Origin: an uncultured Bacteroidota bacterium
GTDB taxonomy: Bacteria > Bacteroidota > Bacteroidia > AKYH767-A > JABDAW01
Length of the DNA: 35,740 nt
Reading direction: 5' to 3'
Assembly: GCA_903844645.1 (NCBI GenBank)
Contig: CAIMUP010000122.1
Location: forward strand, 1 to 35,740
The translations under genes and the position numbers were made by a program. How positions within the stretch are numbered: position 1 is the stretch's first letter; the number at the start of each line of letters is the position of its first letter. The notes below the pieces were generated by a model, which saw nothing but the letters and a program-made list of their open reading frames with translations, did not search any database and was not told where the DNA came from. Positions 7,155 through 35,359 of this stretch are shown in pieces.

Positions 7155-7494
7155 CATTTTGAGAAAAGTTCCGGTTTTACGTCTGAAAACCTCCTTTTTA
7201 CGTCTAAAAATGTTCACCGGAGCAATTCGCGTTACGCCCTTTGCTAAGGTCGTTACGCCCTTTGCTATTGTCGTTACGCCCTTTGCTATTGTCGTAACCA
7301 CCTTTGCTATTGTCGTAACCACCTTAGCTATTGTCGTAACCACCTTAGCTATTGTCGTAACCACCTTAGCTATTGTCGTAACCACCTTAGCTATTGTCGT
7401 AACCACCTTAGCAAAGGTCGTAACCACCTTAGCAAAGGTCGTAACCACCTTAGCAAAGGTCATAACGACCGTTGCTAAGGGCAATAAAAATGAA
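7155..7494. repeat. 21-bp tandem array A
   Basis: Thirteen consecutive 21-base units run from 7222 to 7494 without a single slip in register. The commonest unit begins gctattgtcgtaaccacc. Units at the left carry gttacgccc, and those at the right replace gctatt with gcaaag. To the left, two units of another type (tttacgtct at 7176 and 7197) keep the same 21-base spacing. Because 21 is a multiple of 3, long open frames appear on both strands; I do not take these as coding. The array fills the gap between the DUF433 promoter and the terminator at 7525. Confidence 0.95.
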
Positions 7495-11325: not shown

Positions 11326-11352
11326 GGTAAACGATGGACTTCTTGGGGTATG

Positions 11353-11457
11353 TTTTCGGAGACCCCCGTTAAGTTTTCGGAGACCCCCGTTAAGTTTTCG
11401 GGGACCCCCGTTAAGTTGTCGGGGACTCCCGTTAAGTTTTCGGGGACTCCCGTTTAA
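11353..11457. repeat. 21-bp tandem array B
   Basis: Five contiguous 21-base units begin ttttcggagacccccgtt. Changes between units are point substitutions only (gag/ggg, ccc/tcc, one tttt/ttgt). The array sits directly upstream of the promoter at 11318. Confidence 0.95.
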
Positions 11458-13380: not shown

Positions 13381-14445
13381 TTATTCCTTCACCACCTTCC
13401 TTATCACTCTTTCCTTTTCATTACTTATTTCTACGAGATAGATTCCCTTTGCGAGGGTCTCGATGTTTAAGGAAGTGCTGCCGGTGAAGGGTTGATGCAG
13501 CAGCTTGCGACCGGTAATATCATAAAGAATAACCTCCGATGGACTTTGATTATTCGTGGTGATGGTTACTGCATGGGTGGCGGGATTGGGGAAGATGGAG
13601 GGGGTGGGAGGTGGAGTGGATTCAGTGATTCCAGTAATAGAACAATCAGGAACTGGTGGAGATGCTTGTGCAAGTGTATAAAGTCGTACATCATCCAAAA
13701 CCAATTCTGTACAGTGTGAACAAATATGTCCCCAGTTGGTGAATTTAATAGTATGTGAGGTTGAGGTGGCTTTAAACTCAACTATATATCTTTTACCAAT
13801 GCTATCATAGATAAATGATGAAGTTGAATTGTTTCTTAAAAGGGTATCTCCAAATCCAACATCTACCGCAAATAATCCTTTAATAGGGTAATTACCTCCA
13901 CCTTCTCCACCAGCCCAAAATTCTAAAACATAAATATTACCTATTATTAATCCGGTAACAGTTTGCTTTAGACTTATTCCAATTGTTCCTCCATAACCAG
14001 AATCTCTACTATGAGGATAACCAGAATTAATACCAGTTATAGAACAATCTACATTATTTAAACAAGATGTATCACCAAATATTGAAGAACAAGAGTTAGC
14101 ATAATAATTCCCAAAATATGCTGCTCTGGTTCCTTCGATAATATTTGAATAATTACTATCATAAATACAAGCATAGGTTTGACTGCCACCTCCAGTGCAT
14201 ATCCAATTAGCAATATCACATGAATGTCCAATTGAATTTGGGCAAAAAGAAGTATGAGAACTTGTGCTTCCATGATTGGGAATACAATTACTATTCTCAA
14301 ACCCTCCATTCAAAATAAGATTATTCCCACCATGCATTATTGAATCATTCTGATCGTAGCAATAGATGCAGAGCACTTGCGAGTGCAGCGTGAAGAACGA
14401 AGAGTGAAGAATGAGGAGGACGAGGATTAGTTTTAGATTTTTCAT
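13381..14445 (-). CDS. T9SS-sorted protein with galactose-binding-like N-terminal domain
   Basis: I use the ATG at 14445 (354 residues) because it begins a clear signal peptide (MKNLKLILVLLILHSSFFTLHSQ); the in-frame ATG at 14505 lies upstream of the promoter box. Residues ~40-250 start with LILNGGFENSNC and include ANWICTGGG, GTRAAYFGNYY, FWAGGEGGG and LVLDDVRLYTL. This layout (NGGFE, a W/Y-rich beta sandwich, a closing DDV) resembles DUF642/CBM-like galactose-binding folds. The last ~75 residues are a T9SS type A domain (IFPNPATHAVTI, VILYDITGRKLL, LAKGIYLVEI). It is probably a surface carbohydrate-binding protein; the ligand is unknown. Confidence 0.82.
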   Translation of the reverse strand: MKNLKLILVLLILHSSFFTLHSQVLCIYCYDQNDSIMHGGNNLILNGGFENSNCIPNHGSTSSHTSFCPNSIGHSCDIANWICTGGGSQTYACIYDSNYSNIIEGTRAAYFGNYYANSCSSIFGDTSCLNNVDCSITGINSGYPHSRDSGYGGTIGISLKQTVTGLIIGNIYVLEFWAGGEGGGNYPIKGLFAVDVGFGDTLLRNNSTSSFIYDSIGKRYIVEFKATSTSHTIKFTNWGHICSHCTELVLDDVRLYTLAQASPPVPDCSITGITESTPPPTPSIFPNPATHAVTITTNNQSPSEVILYDITGRKLLHQPFTGSTSLNIETLAKGIYLVEISNEKERVIRKVVKE

Positions 14446-14468
14446 GTTGCTATATATATAATGAGTGG

Positions 14469-14476
14469 CAAAATTA
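14469..14476 (-). promoter_or_regulatory. Promoter -7 box of the 13381 gene
   Basis: The minus strand reads TAATTTTG, about 25 bases before the start. The sequence around it (14462-14478) is identical to 7112-7128. Confidence 0.6.
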
Positions 14477-14521
14477 GGGAAAAGTTTGGGAATATCGCAA
14501 ATCATCCTACCTGAAGCCTCA

Positions 14522-14728
14522 AAAATCCGTACGGATTCTCTGAAGTTCCGTACGGATTACGGGAATTTCCGTACGGATTCTCTGAAGTTCCGTATAGGTC
14601 AGGGAAAATTCCGTAAGGATTCTCTGAAGTTCCGTATGGGTCAGGGAAAATTCCGTAAGGATTCTCTGGCGTTCCGTAAGGAAATTCCCGTAATCCGTAC
14701 GGAACTTCAGAGAATCCGTACGGATTTT
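14522..14728. repeat. 21-bp tandem array C with a 49-bp inverted repeat
   Basis: About ten 21-base units alternate between two types, gaagttccgtacgg-like and aaaattccgtaagg-like, with attctct or gtcaggg ends. The first 49 bases (14522-14570) and the last 49 (14680-14728) are perfect reverse complements, so the array could fold into one long hairpin with a 109-base loop. ccgtacgg is itself palindromic. The array lies between the divergent promoters of the genes at 13381 (-) and 14870 (+). Confidence 0.95.
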
Positions 14729-20435: not shown

Positions 20436-20613
20436 TTCCACCGTATGCTCACGAGCTTCCACCGTTAGCTCAAGGTCTTCCACTGTTAGCTCACGGTCTC
20501 TCACTGTTAGCTCACGGTCTTCCACCGTTAGCTCAAGGTCTCTCACTGTTAGCTCACGGTCTTCCACCGTTAGCTCAAGGTCTTCCACCGTTAGCTCAAG
20601 GTCTTCCACTGTT
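20436..20613. repeat. 21-bp tandem array D
   Basis: About 8.5 units of 21 bases start ttccaccgttagctcaag. The variants are ttcc/tctc, accg/actg and aagg/acgg, reused in different combinations. The array begins 25 bp after the proS stop. Confidence 0.95.
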
Positions 20614-20617
20614 CGGT

Positions 20618-20707
20618 GAAATGAAATCGCGCACTCGCGAAATGAAATCGCGCGCTCGCGAAATGAAATCGCGAGCTCGTGAAATGAAATCGCGAGGTTG
20701 GGAAATG
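20618..20707. repeat. 21-bp tandem array E (different unit)
   Basis: Four and a partial fifth unit of 21 bases begin gaaatgaaatcgcg and end in variable cactcgc, cgctcgc, agctcgt or aggttgg. It adjoins array D but shares no sequence with it, only the period. The units are GC-palindromic in part (tcgcga, gagctc). Confidence 0.93.
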
Positions 20708-24053: not shown

Positions 24054-24142
24054 ATTATGGGTCATTGACCAATGGCGTTGACTTTTTGCATTTCAGCGAT
24101 GTGGTTTATACCACGACTCCTTAATTTCACCATGTTTAACGA

Positions 24143-24472
24143 GGGTCTGTCATGTTCCTTCGAGGGTCTGTCATGTTCCTTGAAGGGTCTGTCATGTTCC
24201 TTCGAGGGTCTGTCATGTTCCTTCGAGGGTCTGTCATGTTCCTTGAAGGGTCTGTCATGTTCCTTGAAGGGTCTGTCATGTTCCTTGAAGGGTCTGTCAT
24301 GTTCCTTCGAGGGTCTGTCATGTTCCTTGAAGGGTCTGTCATGTTCATTGAAGGGTCTGTCATGTTCCTTCGAGGGTCTGTCACACTCCTTCAAAGGTCT
24401 GTCATACTCCTTCGAGGGTCTGTCATTGACCTTCGAGGGTCTGTCACACTCCTTCGAGGGTCTGTCATTGAA
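24143..24472. repeat. 21-bp tandem array F
   Basis: Nearly 16 units of 21 bases begin gggtctgtcatgttcctt. Two main versions end in cga or gaa and are mixed along the array. The last five units replace atgttc with acactc, atactc or attgac, so the right end is most diverged. The frame stays open in several readings, including one giving GLSCSFE-type heptapeptides, which I attribute to the 21-base period. The array lies between pdhB and the 3' end of the tRNA-Thr gene. Confidence 0.95.
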
Positions 24473-27560: not shown

Positions 27561-27690
27561 GGAGTTTTTTCAATACGAATCTTTTAAAATTCTGGTAGCA
27601 TATCAGTTTAAAAAGAAACTATTAGACTTAATATCCATAGGAAGCTATGTAATTCCCTTCGGCAAAAGAAAGTATCATTTCGGTAAAACC

Positions 27691-27984
27691 TATTTGCGTT
27701 TGAGCCAAACCTATTTGAGTTTGCTCCAAATGTATTTGAGTTTACGCCAAATGTATTTGAGTTTGCGCCAAACCTATTTGTGTTTGAGCCAAACCTATTT
27801 GAGTTTGCTCCAAATGTATTTGAGTTTACGCCAAATGTATTTGAGTTTGCGCCAAACCTATTTGTGTTTGCTCCAAACCTATTTGTGTTTGCGCCAAATG
27901 TATTTGAGTTTGCTCCAGACCTATTTGTGTTTGAGCCAAACCTATTTGTGTTTGAGCCAAACACATTCGTATTTGAGCCAATAG
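27691..27984. repeat. 21-bp tandem array G
   Basis: Fourteen contiguous units of 21 bases begin tatttgagtttgcgccaa. Variants at three positions (gag/gtg, gcg/ctc/acg/gag, atg/acc) mix along the array. Units 2-4 are repeated exactly as units 6-8 and unit 9 differs little from unit 5, so an 84-bp block was duplicated. atttg and caaat give each unit a weak dyad. It fills the gap between gpsA and the phosphate operon. Confidence 0.95.
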
Positions 27985-30648: not shown

Positions 30649-30739
30649 CGGTTAAAACTTCAATACCGCAAGAGAAATCTCACTATTCCAAACATTTAAC
30701 TAAAATCCTATTGTTAAATGCCCAAAATCTCTTTTTGGA

Positions 30740-30897
30740 GGAACTAACTCGTTTCTGTCAGGAACTAACTCGTTTCTGTCAGGAACTAACTCGTTTCTGT
30801 CAGGAACTAACTCGTTTCTGTCAGGGACTAACTCGTTTCTGTCAGGAACTAACTCGTTTCTGTCAGGGACTAACTCGTTTCTGTCAGGAACTAACTC
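30740..30897. repeat. 21-bp tandem array H
   Basis: About 7.5 units of 21 bases begin ggaactaactcgtttctg. Only gga/ggg varies, so this is the most homogeneous array and probably the youngest. It lies in the divergent gap between the genes at 29908 (-) and 31029 (+). Confidence 0.95.
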
Positions 30898-31028: not shown

Positions 31029-31715
31029 ATGAAGAGAATTTATAGCCTGAAATTGGGAATCATACTGGGTATCGTTTTATCCTTTGGGATGGTTCATGGA
31101 GCAGTAACTTTCACTACCGTTTGTTTTGGTGTAAGCAATTGTTTTACTCATGATGGTTCTATTTTAATAACCGCAACTGGCGGAACGACTCCTTATATGT
31201 ATTCAATAAATTGTGGGCTGACTTGGCAAAGCTCTTATTCTTTTAATGGATTACATGCCGGAGCTTATGAAATAGAAGTGAAGGATGCTTTAAACGATTC
31301 GTCGGTTTGTGTGGCGATAACAGTAGGGTATAATGACCCTATCATTTATACCACCAGCATCACCAATGTTACTTGCAATACATGTAGTGATGGAAGGGTC
31401 ATCGTTATGGCAAGTGGAGGTGGTGGAGGTGGTTATTTATATTCTAAGAATTGTGGAATAACATTTGGAACACCAAGTACCTTTAATAATTTAACATCCG
31501 GTTGGTTTCATATACAGGTTAAAAATGGATATGATTGCATTACGAATTGCGATTCGGTTTATGTTGGAAGTCCTGCTGGTATGAATGAAATAAATACTGA
31601 TGCAGAGATGAAGGTTTATCCCAACCCGGCAACTACTACCATAACCATCCATTCTCAACTATCCATTCTCAACTCTCAACTCTCAACTCTCAACTCATCA
31701 TCACCGATGTATTAG
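31029..31715 (+). CDS. SprB-repeat surface protein, sorting domain out of frame
   Basis: The 228-residue reading frame has a signal peptide (LKLGIILGIVLSFGMVHGA) and two SprB-type repeats of ~75-80 residues. One starts at TFTTVCFGVSNCFTHDGSIL, the other at TSITNVTCNTCSDGRVIV, each followed by GG..P(Y)-like and G.Y/F.I.VK. A T9SS sorting domain begins (MKVYPNPATTTITIHSQ), but after the heptanucleotide repeat at 31668-31695 the frame ends in SSSPMY-stop. The missing domain lies in another frame at 31697-31840. As read, the protein would be exported to the periplasm but could not use T9SS. A change of repeat number would restore it. Confidence 0.8.
   Translation: MKRIYSLKLGIILGIVLSFGMVHGAVTFTTVCFGVSNCFTHDGSILITATGGTTPYMYSINCGLTWQSSYSFNGLHAGAYEIEVKDALNDSSVCVAITVGYNDPIIYTTSITNVTCNTCSDGRVIVMASGGGGGGYLYSKNCGITFGTPSTFNNLTSGWFHIQVKNGYDCITNCDSVYVGSPAGMNEINTDAEMKVYPNPATTTITIHSQLSILNSQLSTLNSSSPMY
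31668..31695 (+). repeat. (CTCAACT)4 heptanucleotide repeat within the sorting domain
   Basis: Four perfect tandem copies of ctcaact are preceded by one more copy at 31654-31660, separated by atccatt. Because 7 leaves remainder 1 on division by 3, each gain or loss shifts the frame. Five or two copies join the upstream frame to the sorting-domain frame at 31697; four or three do not. Confidence 0.92.
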
Positions 31716-31840
31716 GGAATAAGATTTATCAACAAACAATTACGAATGCCACCCAATCAACCATTGACATCAGCAAATGGAGCGAGGGGGTATATTTTTA
31801 TGAAGTGAATGGAATAAGAGGGAAGTTTGTGAAGCTATAA
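31697..31840 (+). pseudogene. Out-of-frame remainder of the 31029 T9SS sorting domain
   Basis: In the frame starting at atc 31697 the sequence reads IITDVLGNKIYQQ, ISKWSEGVYFYEVNG and ends GKFVKL-stop at 31840. These are the usual second half of a T9SS type A domain. No start codon belongs to it. It has no internal stop, which suggests recent or reversible loss of frame rather than decay. Confidence 0.85.
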
Positions 31841-31843
31841 AAC

Positions 31844-33148
31844 TTACCTTGTCAGCACTTCGATGATTGCTGTAGCTTTCAGGAGGCATTCGTCGTACTC
31901 TTTTTCAGGGATGGAATCGAAGGTGATCGCGCTGCCGACCATGAAGGAAAGGTACTTCGTGCCGGCATTGTAGAGGATGCTTCGGATCACGACGTTGAAG
32001 TCGAAATCGGCATCTGGGGTGATGTATCCTACGGTGCCGGAATACAATCCGCGTTTGGTTTTTTCGTAGTCTTCGATGAGTTGCATGGCACGGATTTTAG
32101 GTGCACCAGTCATCGAACCCATCGGGAAGGTGGTCTTGATTATTTCGATTAGTTGGTCGGGATTTGTAATCCCGTCCTCCACTTCAGATGTTACGGTTGA
32201 AATCATTTGATGTACTTGCCGGAAGGGGTAGATTCCGAAGAGTTCTTCGACCTTTACAGTGCCCCGCTTTGCCGTTCTCGAAAGGTCGTTGCGGACTAAG
32301 TCCACGATCATCACATTCTCGGCTCGTTCTTTCGCATCGAGGAATAATGTTTGCTTTAATTCTTCGTCATGCAGAGGGTCTTGCAAGTCGCGCCGAATAG
32401 TACCTTTGATAGGTTGGGAGATGAGTTTGTTTCCTTTCTTCATCAAAAATCGTTCGGGGCTGGCACAGATTAAATAATGGTCATCCGCCCGATAAAAGCA
32501 TGAGAACGGCGTAGGGGAAGCTGCGTTTAATTTAGCATACAATTGCTGCGGATTGCAGACGACATTTTCGGCATAGAATTCCATGCAGTAATTCATTTCA
32601 TAAATATCACCCAGCGCGATATGTTGCTTGATTTGTTTGATCGTCGCGAGGTATTCCTCCCTCGAAACACGTTGCTGAATGGCGGGTTTAAGCGTTTCTG
32701 TGGGAGGAATAATTTGTGTATTTATTTCGTGGAATAGTTGATTAATCGTTTCGTCGCTACTTTCTTTTTGATGATGAATAATAAGCTGCTCGCCCTTTAT
32801 TTCAAATAACAGATCGGGATGAAAGAAATGCAACAAAGGCATCTCGATGTTATCATTGTTGTTGGAGGAAAGGTGTTCGATTTCGTTCTTCAAATCGTAA
32901 GTCATAAACCCAAATGCCCAATCGTTATTAAGTATGCCTTTAAGAACATCAAATGCTCCACTCTCCCCTTGGAGAGGGGCTGGGGGTGAGGCTGAAACAG
33001 CCATCAGGCAATCATAATTCTTGTAAACATTGCCTTCGTAATATCCATTACTATCAAGATAACAAATGCAGGGATAGTTCATTGCCCATTGCAGCATTCG
33101 TTGCTTGAATTCGTGGACATTGGTATGGGGATAAATAGAAATTTTCAT
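31844..33148 (-). CDS. pabB: Aminodeoxychorismate synthase component I
   Basis: PabB converts chorismate with ammonia to 4-amino-4-deoxychorismate for folate synthesis. The 434-residue protein carries the chorismate-binding domain. SQPIKGTIRRD (~residue 243) has the Lys that distinguishes PabB from anthranilate synthase. Then come AENVMIVDLVRNDLSRTA, HQMISTVTSEV, FPMGSMTGAPKIRAMQLI and GLYSGTVGYI. Two segments look like in-frame insertions of palindromic repeats: SASPPAPLQGESGA (~52-65) and DGITNPDQ (~324-331). Both fall where the family is variable, and neither interrupts a motif. It is convergent with the 31029 gene (3-bp gap) and divergent from recG. Confidence 0.92.
   Translation of the reverse strand: MKISIYPHTNVHEFKQRMLQWAMNYPCICYLDSNGYYEGNVYKNYDCLMAVSASPPAPLQGESGAFDVLKGILNNDWAFGFMTYDLKNEIEHLSSNNNDNIEMPLLHFFHPDLLFEIKGEQLIIHHQKESSDETINQLFHEINTQIIPPTETLKPAIQQRVSREEYLATIKQIKQHIALGDIYEMNYCMEFYAENVVCNPQQLYAKLNAASPTPFSCFYRADDHYLICASPERFLMKKGNKLISQPIKGTIRRDLQDPLHDEELKQTLFLDAKERAENVMIVDLVRNDLSRTAKRGTVKVEELFGIYPFRQVHQMISTVTSEVEDGITNPDQLIEIIKTTFPMGSMTGAPKIRAMQLIEDYEKTKRGLYSGTVGYITPDADFDFNVVIRSILYNAGTKYLSFMVGSAITFDSIPEKEYDECLLKATAIIEVLTR
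32155..32178. repeat. Palindromic element inside pabB (copy 1 of the recG type)
   Basis: The sequence centres on cgggatttgtaatcccg, a 7-bp inverted repeat with a 3-base loop. On the coding strand 22 bases are identical to recG 33651-33672, and both are read in the same frame as DGITNPDQ. Confidence 0.85.
32959..32990. repeat. Palindromic GC-rich element inside pabB
   Basis: ctctccccttggagag is an inverted repeat followed by gggctgggggtgag. It is far more G/C-rich than the surrounding gene and encodes SPPAPLQGE. I recall similar tracts as interspersed repeats in Bacteroidota genomes. Confidence 0.65.
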
Positions 33149-33153
33149 GGCTT

Positions 33154-33161
33154 CAAAACTA
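33154..33161 (-). promoter_or_regulatory. Promoter -7 box of pabB
   Basis: The minus strand reads TAGTTTTG followed by AAGCC and then the ATG, only 5 bases downstream. The transcript would be leaderless or nearly so. Confidence 0.4.
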
Positions 33162-33203
33162 AATTAAATCTCGGTAACGGATTTATTTTGCAAACAAATA
33201 ATC

Positions 33204-33211
33204 TACTTTTG
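33204..33211 (+). promoter_or_regulatory. Promoter -7 box of recG
   Basis: TACTTTTG followed by CATCC, 21 bases before the start; a TTTTG lies 14 bases upstream of the box. Confidence 0.6.
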
Positions 33212-33232
33212 CATCCATAGAAATAAGAACTG

Positions 33233-35359
33233 ATGGCACACGATTTTTTTGATACTCCTATAGAATTCCTCAAGGGCGTAGGTCCGAAGAAGGCGGAAAC
33301 ACTGCAAAAGGAGCTGAACATTTTCACTTATGGCGGCTTCATTCGGCATTATCCTTTTCGGTATGTGGACCGTTCCAAGTTTTATAAAGCCAATGAGATT
33401 ACCGAAGATATTCCTTATGTCCAGGTGCGGGGAATTATTGGTAATGTGCAAGTCCTTGGCGAGAAAAGAGCACAAAGATTGACGGCTTTATTCAAGGATT
33501 CGACGGGAACTATTGAATTGGTTTGGTTTAAAGGAACGAAGTGGGTACGCGATTCTATCAAGCCCGGAACGGAATATATTATCTTCGGCAAACCCAATCT
33601 TTTTAATGGCAAGATAAACATTGTGCATCCCGAAATAGAGCCTGTTATTAAGGACGGGATTACAAATCCCGATCAGCAATTGGGAAATCTCTCCACATTA
33701 TTTCCGGTTTACAATACTTCTGAAAGAATGAAGGCTGGTTTTCTTGATAGTAAAACCATCGCGAAGTTGCAAAAGACTTTAATAAGCATTATGCCGCCCA
33801 TTATTCCTGAAGTTCTGCCTGAAAATATTGTTCAGGATTTGAAATTAATGAGTGGCTTGGAGGCTTTGATTAACATTCACAACCCCACTTCTGACAAGGC
33901 TTTGAAGAATGCCGAATTCCGCCTCAAGTTTGAAGAATTATTCTTCTTGCAAATGGAATTATTAAAAATAAAAGTCAATAGAAAGGAACAAAATAAAGGA
34001 CAAATATTCGCTAAAATCGGCGATTTCTTCAATAACTTTTATACCACGAAACTTCCCTTTGAATTAACCAATGCGCAGAAGAAGGTTCTCAAGGAAATTC
34101 GCGTGGATATGGGTTCCGGCAAGCAGATGAACCGCTTGTTGCAAGGCGATGTCGGCAGTGGCAAGACATTGGTGGCGTTGATGAGCATGTTGATTGCCTT
34201 GGATAACGGTTATCAGGCTTGCATGATGGCTCCTACCGAACTTTTAGTTACGCAACATTTCAATACCATTAGTAAGATGCTTGAGGGCTTGGGTATTAAG
34301 ATCGAAATCCTTACCGGTTCCAGCAAAACAAAGAAGCGCAGGGCTATTTTAGAACAACTTCTTTCCGGAGAAATACATATTGTGGTCGGGACTCATGCCC
34401 TTATCGAAGAGAGTGTACAGTTCAAGAACCTCGGCTTGGTGGTTATTGACGAGCAGCATCGTTTTGGGGTGGAGCAACGTAGTAAATTGTGGAATAAAAG
34501 CGCTATTTTCCCGCATGTTTTGGTGATGACGGCAACGCCTATTCCGCGTACTTTGGCGATGACTGTTTATGGTGATTTGGATACTTCTATTATTGATGAA
34601 TTACCTCCTGGTCGGACGCCCGTTACCACCGTACATCGCTTTGATAGCAACCGTTTGCGTGTCTTCGGCTTTATGAAGGAGCAGATTCTGTTAGGTCGGC
34701 AAATATATATCGTATATCCTTTGATAGATGAGTCTGAAACGCTCGATTATAAAGATTTGATGGACGGTTTCGAGAGTATTTCCCGTGCTTTTCCGATGCC
34801 AGAATTCCAAGTCAGCATTGTTCATGGCAGAATGAAAGCCGATGTCCGCGATTATGAGATGCAACGCTTCGTAAAAGGCGAAACGCACATCATGGTTGCG
34901 ACTACGGTCATCGAAGTGGGTGTAGATATTCCGAATGCGAGCGTGATGGTGATAGAAAGTGCGGAGCGTTTCGGGCTTTCACAACTGCATCAGCTACGGG
35001 GAAGGGTAGGGCGCGGTGCGAAACAAAGTTATTGCATATTAATGTCATCGTTCAAGCTCTCGAGTGATGCCAAAACCCGCATAGAAACCATGGTTCGGAC
35101 GACGGATGGTTTTGAAATTGCGGAGATAGATATGCAACTGCGCGGTCCGGGAGACATTGCCGGCACGGCACAAAGTGGTATTCTCAATCTTCGTTTGGCG
35201 GACATCGGGAAGGATGCTGAAATACTGAAATTAGCAAGGGTTACTGCCATCAAAATATTAGAAGAAGACCCGCATCTGCAGGCTCCTATTAATAAATGTT
35301 TGCTTGATATTTATAATGCCAGGAAAAGAGTCAAGACGAATTGGAGCCGGGTTTCTTAA
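33233..35359 (+). CDS. recG: ATP-dependent DNA helicase RecG
   Basis: RecG reverses stalled forks and branch-migrates junctions. The 708 residues follow the family order. The N-terminal wedge/OB domain starts at FLKGVGPKKAETLQKELNI and contains YVQVRGIIGNVQV. The helicase core has Walker A GDVGSGKT (~305), the DEQH box IDEQHRFGVEQR (~405), motif III MTATPIPRTLAMT, VGVDIPNASVMVIESAERFG and QLRGRVGRG. The C-terminal TRG region includes DMQLRGPGDIAGTAQSG. Residues ~140-148 (KDGITNPDQ) are encoded by a palindromic repeat also found in pabB and look like an in-frame insertion between wedge elements. Confidence 0.96.
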   Translation: MAHDFFDTPIEFLKGVGPKKAETLQKELNIFTYGGFIRHYPFRYVDRSKFYKANEITEDIPYVQVRGIIGNVQVLGEKRAQRLTALFKDSTGTIELVWFKGTKWVRDSIKPGTEYIIFGKPNLFNGKINIVHPEIEPVIKDGITNPDQQLGNLSTLFPVYNTSERMKAGFLDSKTIAKLQKTLISIMPPIIPEVLPENIVQDLKLMSGLEALINIHNPTSDKALKNAEFRLKFEELFFLQMELLKIKVNRKEQNKGQIFAKIGDFFNNFYTTKLPFELTNAQKKVLKEIRVDMGSGKQMNRLLQGDVGSGKTLVALMSMLIALDNGYQACMMAPTELLVTQHFNTISKMLEGLGIKIEILTGSSKTKKRRAILEQLLSGEIHIVVGTHALIEESVQFKNLGLVVIDEQHRFGVEQRSKLWNKSAIFPHVLVMTATPIPRTLAMTVYGDLDTSIIDELPPGRTPVTTVHRFDSNRLRVFGFMKEQILLGRQIYIVYPLIDESETLDYKDLMDGFESISRAFPMPEFQVSIVHGRMKADVRDYEMQRFVKGETHIMVATTVIEVGVDIPNASVMVIESAERFGLSQLHQLRGRVGRGAKQSYCILMSSFKLSSDAKTRIETMVRTTDGFEIAEIDMQLRGPGDIAGTAQSGILNLRLADIGKDAEILKLARVTAIKILEEDPHLQAPINKCLLDIYNARKRVKTNWSRVS
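33651..33676. repeat. Palindromic element inside recG (copy 2)
   Basis: cgggattacaaatcccg (7-bp arms, 3-base loop) lies within a tract identical over 22 bases to the coding strand of pabB 32155-32178. Confidence 0.85.

Follow-up and report, generated by a model that had tools for sequence, protein, structure and literature searches.

In-frame copies of a putative RAYT-type REP family in protein-coding genes of a Bacteroidota genus

Repetitive extragenic palindromes (REPs) take their name from their extragenic location, and the mechanism of their movement is not settled. The Rickettsia palindromic element RPE-1 decorates proteins in frame. The GTAG and CGTC superfamilies of REPs are dispersed palindromes of 20–40 nt with in-frame genic copies, many of them in DNA repair genes; members of the CGTC superfamily have a terminal CGTC, a stem of 8–9 bp with AT pairs at the first and second position and a loop of 4–5, and the Rickettsia palindromic elements RPE-4 and RPE-6 have been classed with them (PMC3733652). 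Recognition of REPs via GTAG is treated in PMC8266576. An inverted pair of REPs at short distance is called a REPIN (REP doublet forming a hairpin) or BIME (bacterial interspersed mosaic element), and REPs inside genes of REP-associated tyrosine transposases (RAYTs) without loss of frame are already in print (PMC6006769). According to the same source, RAYTs of subclass 2.6 (RAYT group 5) are found mostly in Bacteroidetes, have ~179 aa with WQ and YIH[QN]NP motifs and an NH[LIV]H HUH motif, and are encoded by genes flanked by atypical hairpins that lack GT[AG]G and recur in the genome; for this subclass, its accessible text gives neither the hairpin sequence nor intragenic copies. In-frame intragenic REPs, including RPE-4/6, are hence known. 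Here we describe a palindrome in two neighbouring genes, pabB and recG, of a 35,740-nt stretch (the window; contig CAIMUP010000122.1 of GCA_903844645.1) from an uncultured Bacteroidota bacterium (AKYH767-A; JABDAW01). Judged from its sequence and its neighbours in other genomes, the palindrome belongs to a REP family of the RAYT/TnpA-REP type in Bacteroidota. New are the sequence of this family, the high share of genic copies within a single genus, the lack of a detected RAYT there and a footprint of partial replacement; a search of the open-licence literature turned up no report of such gene-embedded REPs from Bacteroidota.

An identical 22-mer, AGGACGGGATTACAAATCCCGA, is located in recG (33651–33672, plus strand) and in pabB (32157–32178, minus strand) and is read in the same frame, as DGITNPDQ, in both. 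A previous reading of the sequence alone had pointed out this tract common to two unrelated neighbouring genes and its shared translation, and both claims held in the open reading frames (ORFs) concerned. The host genes, supported by ORF, Pfam and solved homologues, and the two REP copies are as follows.

31844..33148, minus strand: pabB, REP host (chorismate-binding enzyme, aminodeoxychorismate synthase component I)
32152..32177, minus strand: REP copy in pabB, read EDGITNPDQL; net +4 residues versus 29/29 homologues
33233..35359, plus strand: recG helicase, REP host just past the wedge/OB region
33652..33677, plus strand: REP copy in recG, read KDGITNPDQQ; net +7 residues versus 27/29 homologues

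The 17-base core, CGGGATTACAAATCCCG, is exact at 32158–32174 (minus) and 33655–33671 (plus). With up to three mismatches it has four matches in the window (two sites on both strands) versus 0.15 expected, with a maximum of two in 100 shuffles. Chance was rejected on this ground and because the reversed family pattern had no match in the genomes compared below. Folded as single-stranded DNA hairpins, the two copies reach z values of −4.4 and −3.9. The only Rfam match in the window is one tRNA, which leaves no known RNA family for the palindrome.

The window's genome (G000) was compared with those of two congeners (G001 and G002), all three being drafts of 143 to about 300 contigs each. Homologue sets were drawn from 41 genomes covering the genus, its family and its order, with the best 30 loci each and self excluded (n = 29), and loop positions of the REP copies were read off sequence alignments. 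The PabB site has exactly four residues fewer in all 29 homologues, and the three solved PabB homologues with printed alignments are also four residues shorter. At the RecG site, 27 homologues lack seven residues, one lacks eight and one, from G002, has 15 more. There, recG carries GGTCGGGATTGCAAATCCCGACCAGCG at the same site, followed by a spacer and its inverted copy, in frame; the pair folds at z −10.3. This is the arrangement of a REPIN/BIME, but it lies inside coding sequence; the two window copies are single, as are most copies in the genus. Both the pabB and the recG sites are unoccupied in G001. In recG of G000 and G002, the REPs, which may go back to one event or to two, share 23/26 bases; third codon positions of the gene agree at 0.53. 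The motif GI[TA]NP, looked for at four sites, was found in no homologue except RecG of G002, and the same residues in homologues from unrelated bacteria were sought in the aligned sets without success. Conserved family residues were thus rejected as the origin of DGITNPDQ, since the homologues do not have them. The octapeptide had been proposed to be extra relative to both families; this is borne out by the shorter homologues of either protein, but the net gain is four and seven residues, not eight.

The palindrome is a member of a dispersed family, as a search inside and between genes, suggested along with the first reading, made evident. G000 has 10 exact copies of the 17-mer and 12 more with a single mismatch, versus zero for the reversed control. 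The family core is GG[T/A]CNNGATT[A/G]CAAATCNNGACCAGC; aligned copies extend the unit to ~GGG[T/A]CGGGATT[A/G]CAAATCCCGACCAGCG, and conservation drops within 1–2 bases beyond it. The unit is a 26–28 nt hairpin with a 10-bp stem starting G-C G-C, a 3-nt loop and an unpaired AGC tail, and its consensus ends are GGG[T/A]C and ACCAGCG. With the variable stem bases left free, the pattern has 46, 41 and 23 matches in the three genus genomes and 0–2 in each of 37 others, while the only further genome from the same family has none; reversed, it has none in all 41. Pooling the stretches of both patterns (≤3 mismatches, duplicates removed) gives 51, 36 and 23 copies in G000, G001 and G002, respectively. 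Among these 110 copies, the first free stem position is Watson-Crick paired in 89 (G-C 65, T-A 19, C-G 4, A-T 1), G-T in 12 and unpaired in 9, and the second is paired in 106 (G-C 85, A-T 15, C-G 6). Changes at both free positions occur as pairs, that is, the stems co-vary. At the third stem position, 37 of the 110 copies have an A-A mismatch. In length, dispersal and hairpin-forming capacity the family agrees with RAYT-associated REPs of 20–40 nt; it has no GTAG or GTGG at the 5' foot, and its 10-bp stem, 3-nt loop and AGC tail are not those of the CGTC superfamily. In four G000 loci (L012, L021, L019 and L005), the REP ends a longer shared sequence, reaching ~45 nt to ATAAAAGGAATAGG and holding a small inverted repeat of its own, perhaps a composite repeat.

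Only mechanical ORFs with a family match or a solved homologue were counted as genes (the matched stretches do not in every case cover the REP). By this count, 30 genes of the genus carry an in-frame copy: 12 in G000, 6 in G001 and 12 in G002. The view that the palindrome resides in coding sequence without breaking the frame was thereby confirmed well beyond the window. Hosts in G000 are RecG, PabB, PanC, TruA, an M16 peptidase, a polyphosphate kinase (near the N-terminus), a family-2 glycosyltransferase, a methyltransferase, a DUF4190 protein and three proteins with a sorting domain of the type IX secretion system (T9SS). All six hosts in G001 have a T9SS sorting tail. In G002 they comprise RecG (inverted pair), RsmA, MutL (with the copy between two domains), a P-type ATPase, a methyltransferase, DUF1501, hexapeptide, glycosyltransferase and BNR/sortilin-type proteins, and three further proteins with T9SS tails. 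L297, which has no family match, was excluded, and ORFs without a family search (L003, L281, L291, L292, L025, L152, L304, L315, L317 and L303) were not counted as hosts.

Confirmed genes contain 12/51 copies in G000 and 6/36 in G001, and 12 genes stand against 23 copies in G002; copies are thus mostly between genes in G000 and G001, and weakly so in G002. Most genic copies of G000 read as stop-free GITNPDQ, and the frame xGIT[N/T]P is used in 8 of its 12 hosts (binomial p 1.6e-4 if six frames are assumed and 5.8e-4 if five; a post hoc test, chosen after the data were seen, on hand-tallied counts). In other genomes, the same peptide is read in two out of three long-ORF copies, and two out of these three ORFs have a Pfam match. 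Copies lie in ORFs of ≥200 aa in 7/25 cases in the genus versus 3/105 elsewhere among the matches listed (Fisher p 3.6e-4; exact copies only, room for an ORF required, copies at stretch ends dropped and 12 stretches from congener assemblies set aside). G002 supplies much of this excess, with 6/7 exact copies versus 3/14 in G000 and 1/15 in G001 before the end filter.

Occupied sites rarely show the full element as added length. Against a unit of 26–28 nt, pabB has a net gain of 12 nt, recG of 21–24 nt and panC of 15 nt, for which 25/29 homologues lack five residues; single copies add 0–8 residues, mostly below element length. Host codons were therefore replaced, or trimmed later, and the pabB octapeptide, with a gain of four residues instead of eight, does not represent a clean insertion of 24 nt. 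Two loci in the window serve as unoccupied counterparts.

31787..31840, plus strand: T9SS sorting tail GVYFYEVNGIRGKFVKL, ending at the stop, unoccupied counterpart of REP-bearing tails (L010; loci of G001 and G002); insertion point ~31812/31813
13381..14505, minus strand: REP-free paralogue of the REP-bearing gene in L017 (G000:C95)

In the pair formed by L017 and its window paralogue, ~41 nt including the REP replace ~35 unrelated nt of the paralogue, and the flanks are nearly identical. Clean insertion as a general rule was rejected, as it is seen neither here nor in TruA. The T9SS tails alone resemble near-clean 24-nt insertions when compared with the window's unoccupied tail. At recG, fourfold-site identity is 0.41 with G002 and 0.27 with G001. 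The last turn of the T9SS C-terminal sorting domain is a repeated host, in L032, L149, L310, L319, L320 and L323 (G001), L033 and L150 (G002) and L010 (G000); as these copies are in two reading frames, more than one event is likely.

The association with RAYTs was found outside the genus. An exact-pattern scan of GTDB species genomes returned at least 113 stretches, nearly all from Bacteroidota, with two from a Chlorobiota metagenome-assembled genome (MAG) and one from a Methylococcaceae MAG; setting aside the 12 from two congener assemblies left 101. Among the matches listed, 8 of these 101 have, next to the palindromes, an ORF of ~180–210 codons that encodes HUH and Y motifs. In 8/8 full-length cases a REP lies within 73 nt of the RAYT ORF, and most have REPs on both sides; two fragments with weak RAYT-profile matches (L177 and L194) are outside the eight. 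RAYT genes flanked by REP copies (REPtrons) are thus present in eight records, nearly all Bacteroidota, including Mucilaginibacter arboris, Pedobacter terrae, Larkinella humicola, a Flavobacteriaceae isolate and MAGs; the Methylococcaceae MAG is one of the eight, and its RAYT is diverged. Nine RAYT-type proteins were aligned, five REP-flanked and four from order genomes, and 9/9 match Pfam Y1_Tnp and NCBIfam NF047646, the REP-associated tyrosine transposase (115.7 for the first protein, cut-off 80). Since the palindrome flanks RAYT genes in these records, it is identified as a REP family. Most of the nine have WQ and YIH[HQN]NP, with HUH motifs SHLH or NHLH/NHVH and ORFs of 180–210 aa; compared by motif, these proteins and the absent GTAG tag appear to fit subclass 2.6, and the genus studied here differs in that no RAYT was found and many copies are in genes. 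The RAYT profile matches in 20 of the 41 genomes, some weakly. Around RAYTs of other order members, eight loci were scanned for hairpins: five had none, two unrelated ones and one (L325) a related core. In that locus, from another family of the order (G009), the RAYT is flanked by hairpins (L325:1356–1478 and 2255) whose related core, GCGGATTTGTAATCCGC, is shorter; this suggests joint change of RAYT and REP.

The best explanation, to which we assign a probability of about 0.84, is a RAYT-type REP family which landed in genes and was kept in frame in tolerant places. The ~180-aa HUH/Y1 enzyme flanked by the REP in other genomes probably processes it. Most likely, a RAYT since lost or unassembled in the genus spread single-stranded REP copies, which would have landed both in and between genes; selection may then have kept in-frame copies, mostly in loops, linkers or ends, where REPs replaced host sequence or were trimmed to it. 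The host enzymes presumably still work, and the peptides would be tolerated rather than useful; nothing in the data points to a benefit from them.

Several results weigh against this explanation. The RAYT profile has no match in the drafts G000, G001, G002 and G003, so that the mover is missing in the genus and G000, G001 and G002 have no cognate RAYT in the same genome. As repeats break assemblies, this absence from drafts is no proof, and published REP-bearing strains can lack a RAYT as well (PMC3733652). A Y1 transposase remnant in G000 (L022) was considered as mover and rejected: it resembles the IS200 type, is split into two overlapping ORFs and has no adjoining REP. The family is patchy, 394 of 395 sampled phylum genomes being without an exact match and G000 being the one with it, which contradicts a REP common throughout the phylum and places the stretches of the wider scan in scattered genera. 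Separately, a phage origin was rejected, as viral contigs have no exact match. The AGC tail is neither GTAG nor CGTC. In truA there is no net gain, with 22/29 homologues of equal length and two congeners two residues longer. Finally, no polymorphic insertion was seen, and movement itself is putative. The idea of a small mobile palindrome which creates new protein segments thus stands insofar as one dispersed palindrome adds residues in this lineage; its mobility was not observed, and neither the genome nor the two congeners yielded a RAYT.

The main rival, unlikely but second only to RAYT-driven spread, is a spread without transposase, in which template switching, microhomology or gene conversion copied REPs already present over the target bases, the tie to RAYTs elsewhere being historical. 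It would account for the missing RAYT, for net gains of 0, 12, 15 and 21 nt from a 26–28 nt unit, for the replaced stretch in the L017 pair and for several T9SS tails of G001 with one REP variant and similar flanks. Equal lengths would, however, also result from clean insertions trimmed afterwards, the T9SS tails have the look of near-clean insertions of 24 nt, and the RAYT may be missing from the drafts only. A bolder reading, likewise unlikely, holds that an orphan REP family, its RAYT lost in the genus, spreads chiefly by replacing loop-coding DNA, overwriting up to ~26 nt, and that dozens of unrelated proteins, T9SS tails being a hot spot, thereby acquire GITNPDQ-type segments; if true, new protein loops would arise by a repeat-driven route distinct from insertion.

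That the palindrome is a selfish element like those of Rickettsia, with coding sequence as its proper niche and unrelated to RAYT/REP systems, is improbable. The in-frame residence in 30 genes and the recurrent stop-free peptide recall such elements, and the palindrome does lie in frame in ORFs of presumably functional proteins. Yet most copies of G000 and G001 are outside confirmed genes, only 3/105 listed matches elsewhere are inside long ORFs, and the same sequence flanks RAYT genes. The likeness to Rickettsia elements drawn at the outset therefore holds for behaviour, while the element itself is a RAYT-kind REP found in other Bacteroidota. Ordinary family residues or a chance convergence of two loops are scarcely credible: RecG and TruA do show loops of this sort with variable length and sequence, but the uniformly shorter PabB homologues, 22 identical bases and a genome-wide family speak against it. 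An assembly or binning artefact is similarly implausible; the genomes are drafts and several copies are near contig ends, whereas the frames are open through confirmed hosts and a second assembly, too, has the recG site occupied.

Compared with described systems, RPE-4 and RPE-6 are alike in behaviour, as palindromes decorating proteins without frame break, and differ in their alphaproteobacterial hosts, their CGTC tag and the absence of a RAYT tie in the accessible report. Genes of tRNA pseudouridine synthases are hosts in the GTAG and CGTC superfamilies as well as here; the accessible text of PMC3733652 treats intragenic copies as insertions and reports no net-length footprint. With ~30 gene-embedded copies and unoccupied sites in relatives, footprints, tolerance and a possible benefit become measurable. 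Furthermore, the poorly described hairpins beside Bacteroidota RAYTs gain a sequence definition, and as the enzyme genes are available, GTAG-free recognition is accessible to in vitro assays. Annotation, too, could be misled by peptides common to unrelated enzymes.

The window holds other repeats. Eight tandem arrays of distinct units have a common period of exactly 21 nt (seven codons), are nearly all between evident genes and are open in several frames.

7238–7454, 11352–11454, 14526–14682, 20436–20613, 20618–20707, 24140–24468, 27686–27962 and 30739–30897: 21-nt-period arrays

A common period with unrelated units is unusual. Additionally, a 7-nt tandem array, TCTCAAC, is present at 31653–31696 inside a T9SS-type reading frame, and Ser/Leu-rich stretches related to that of this array are found in another T9SS-type protein of the window (ORF 13381–14505).

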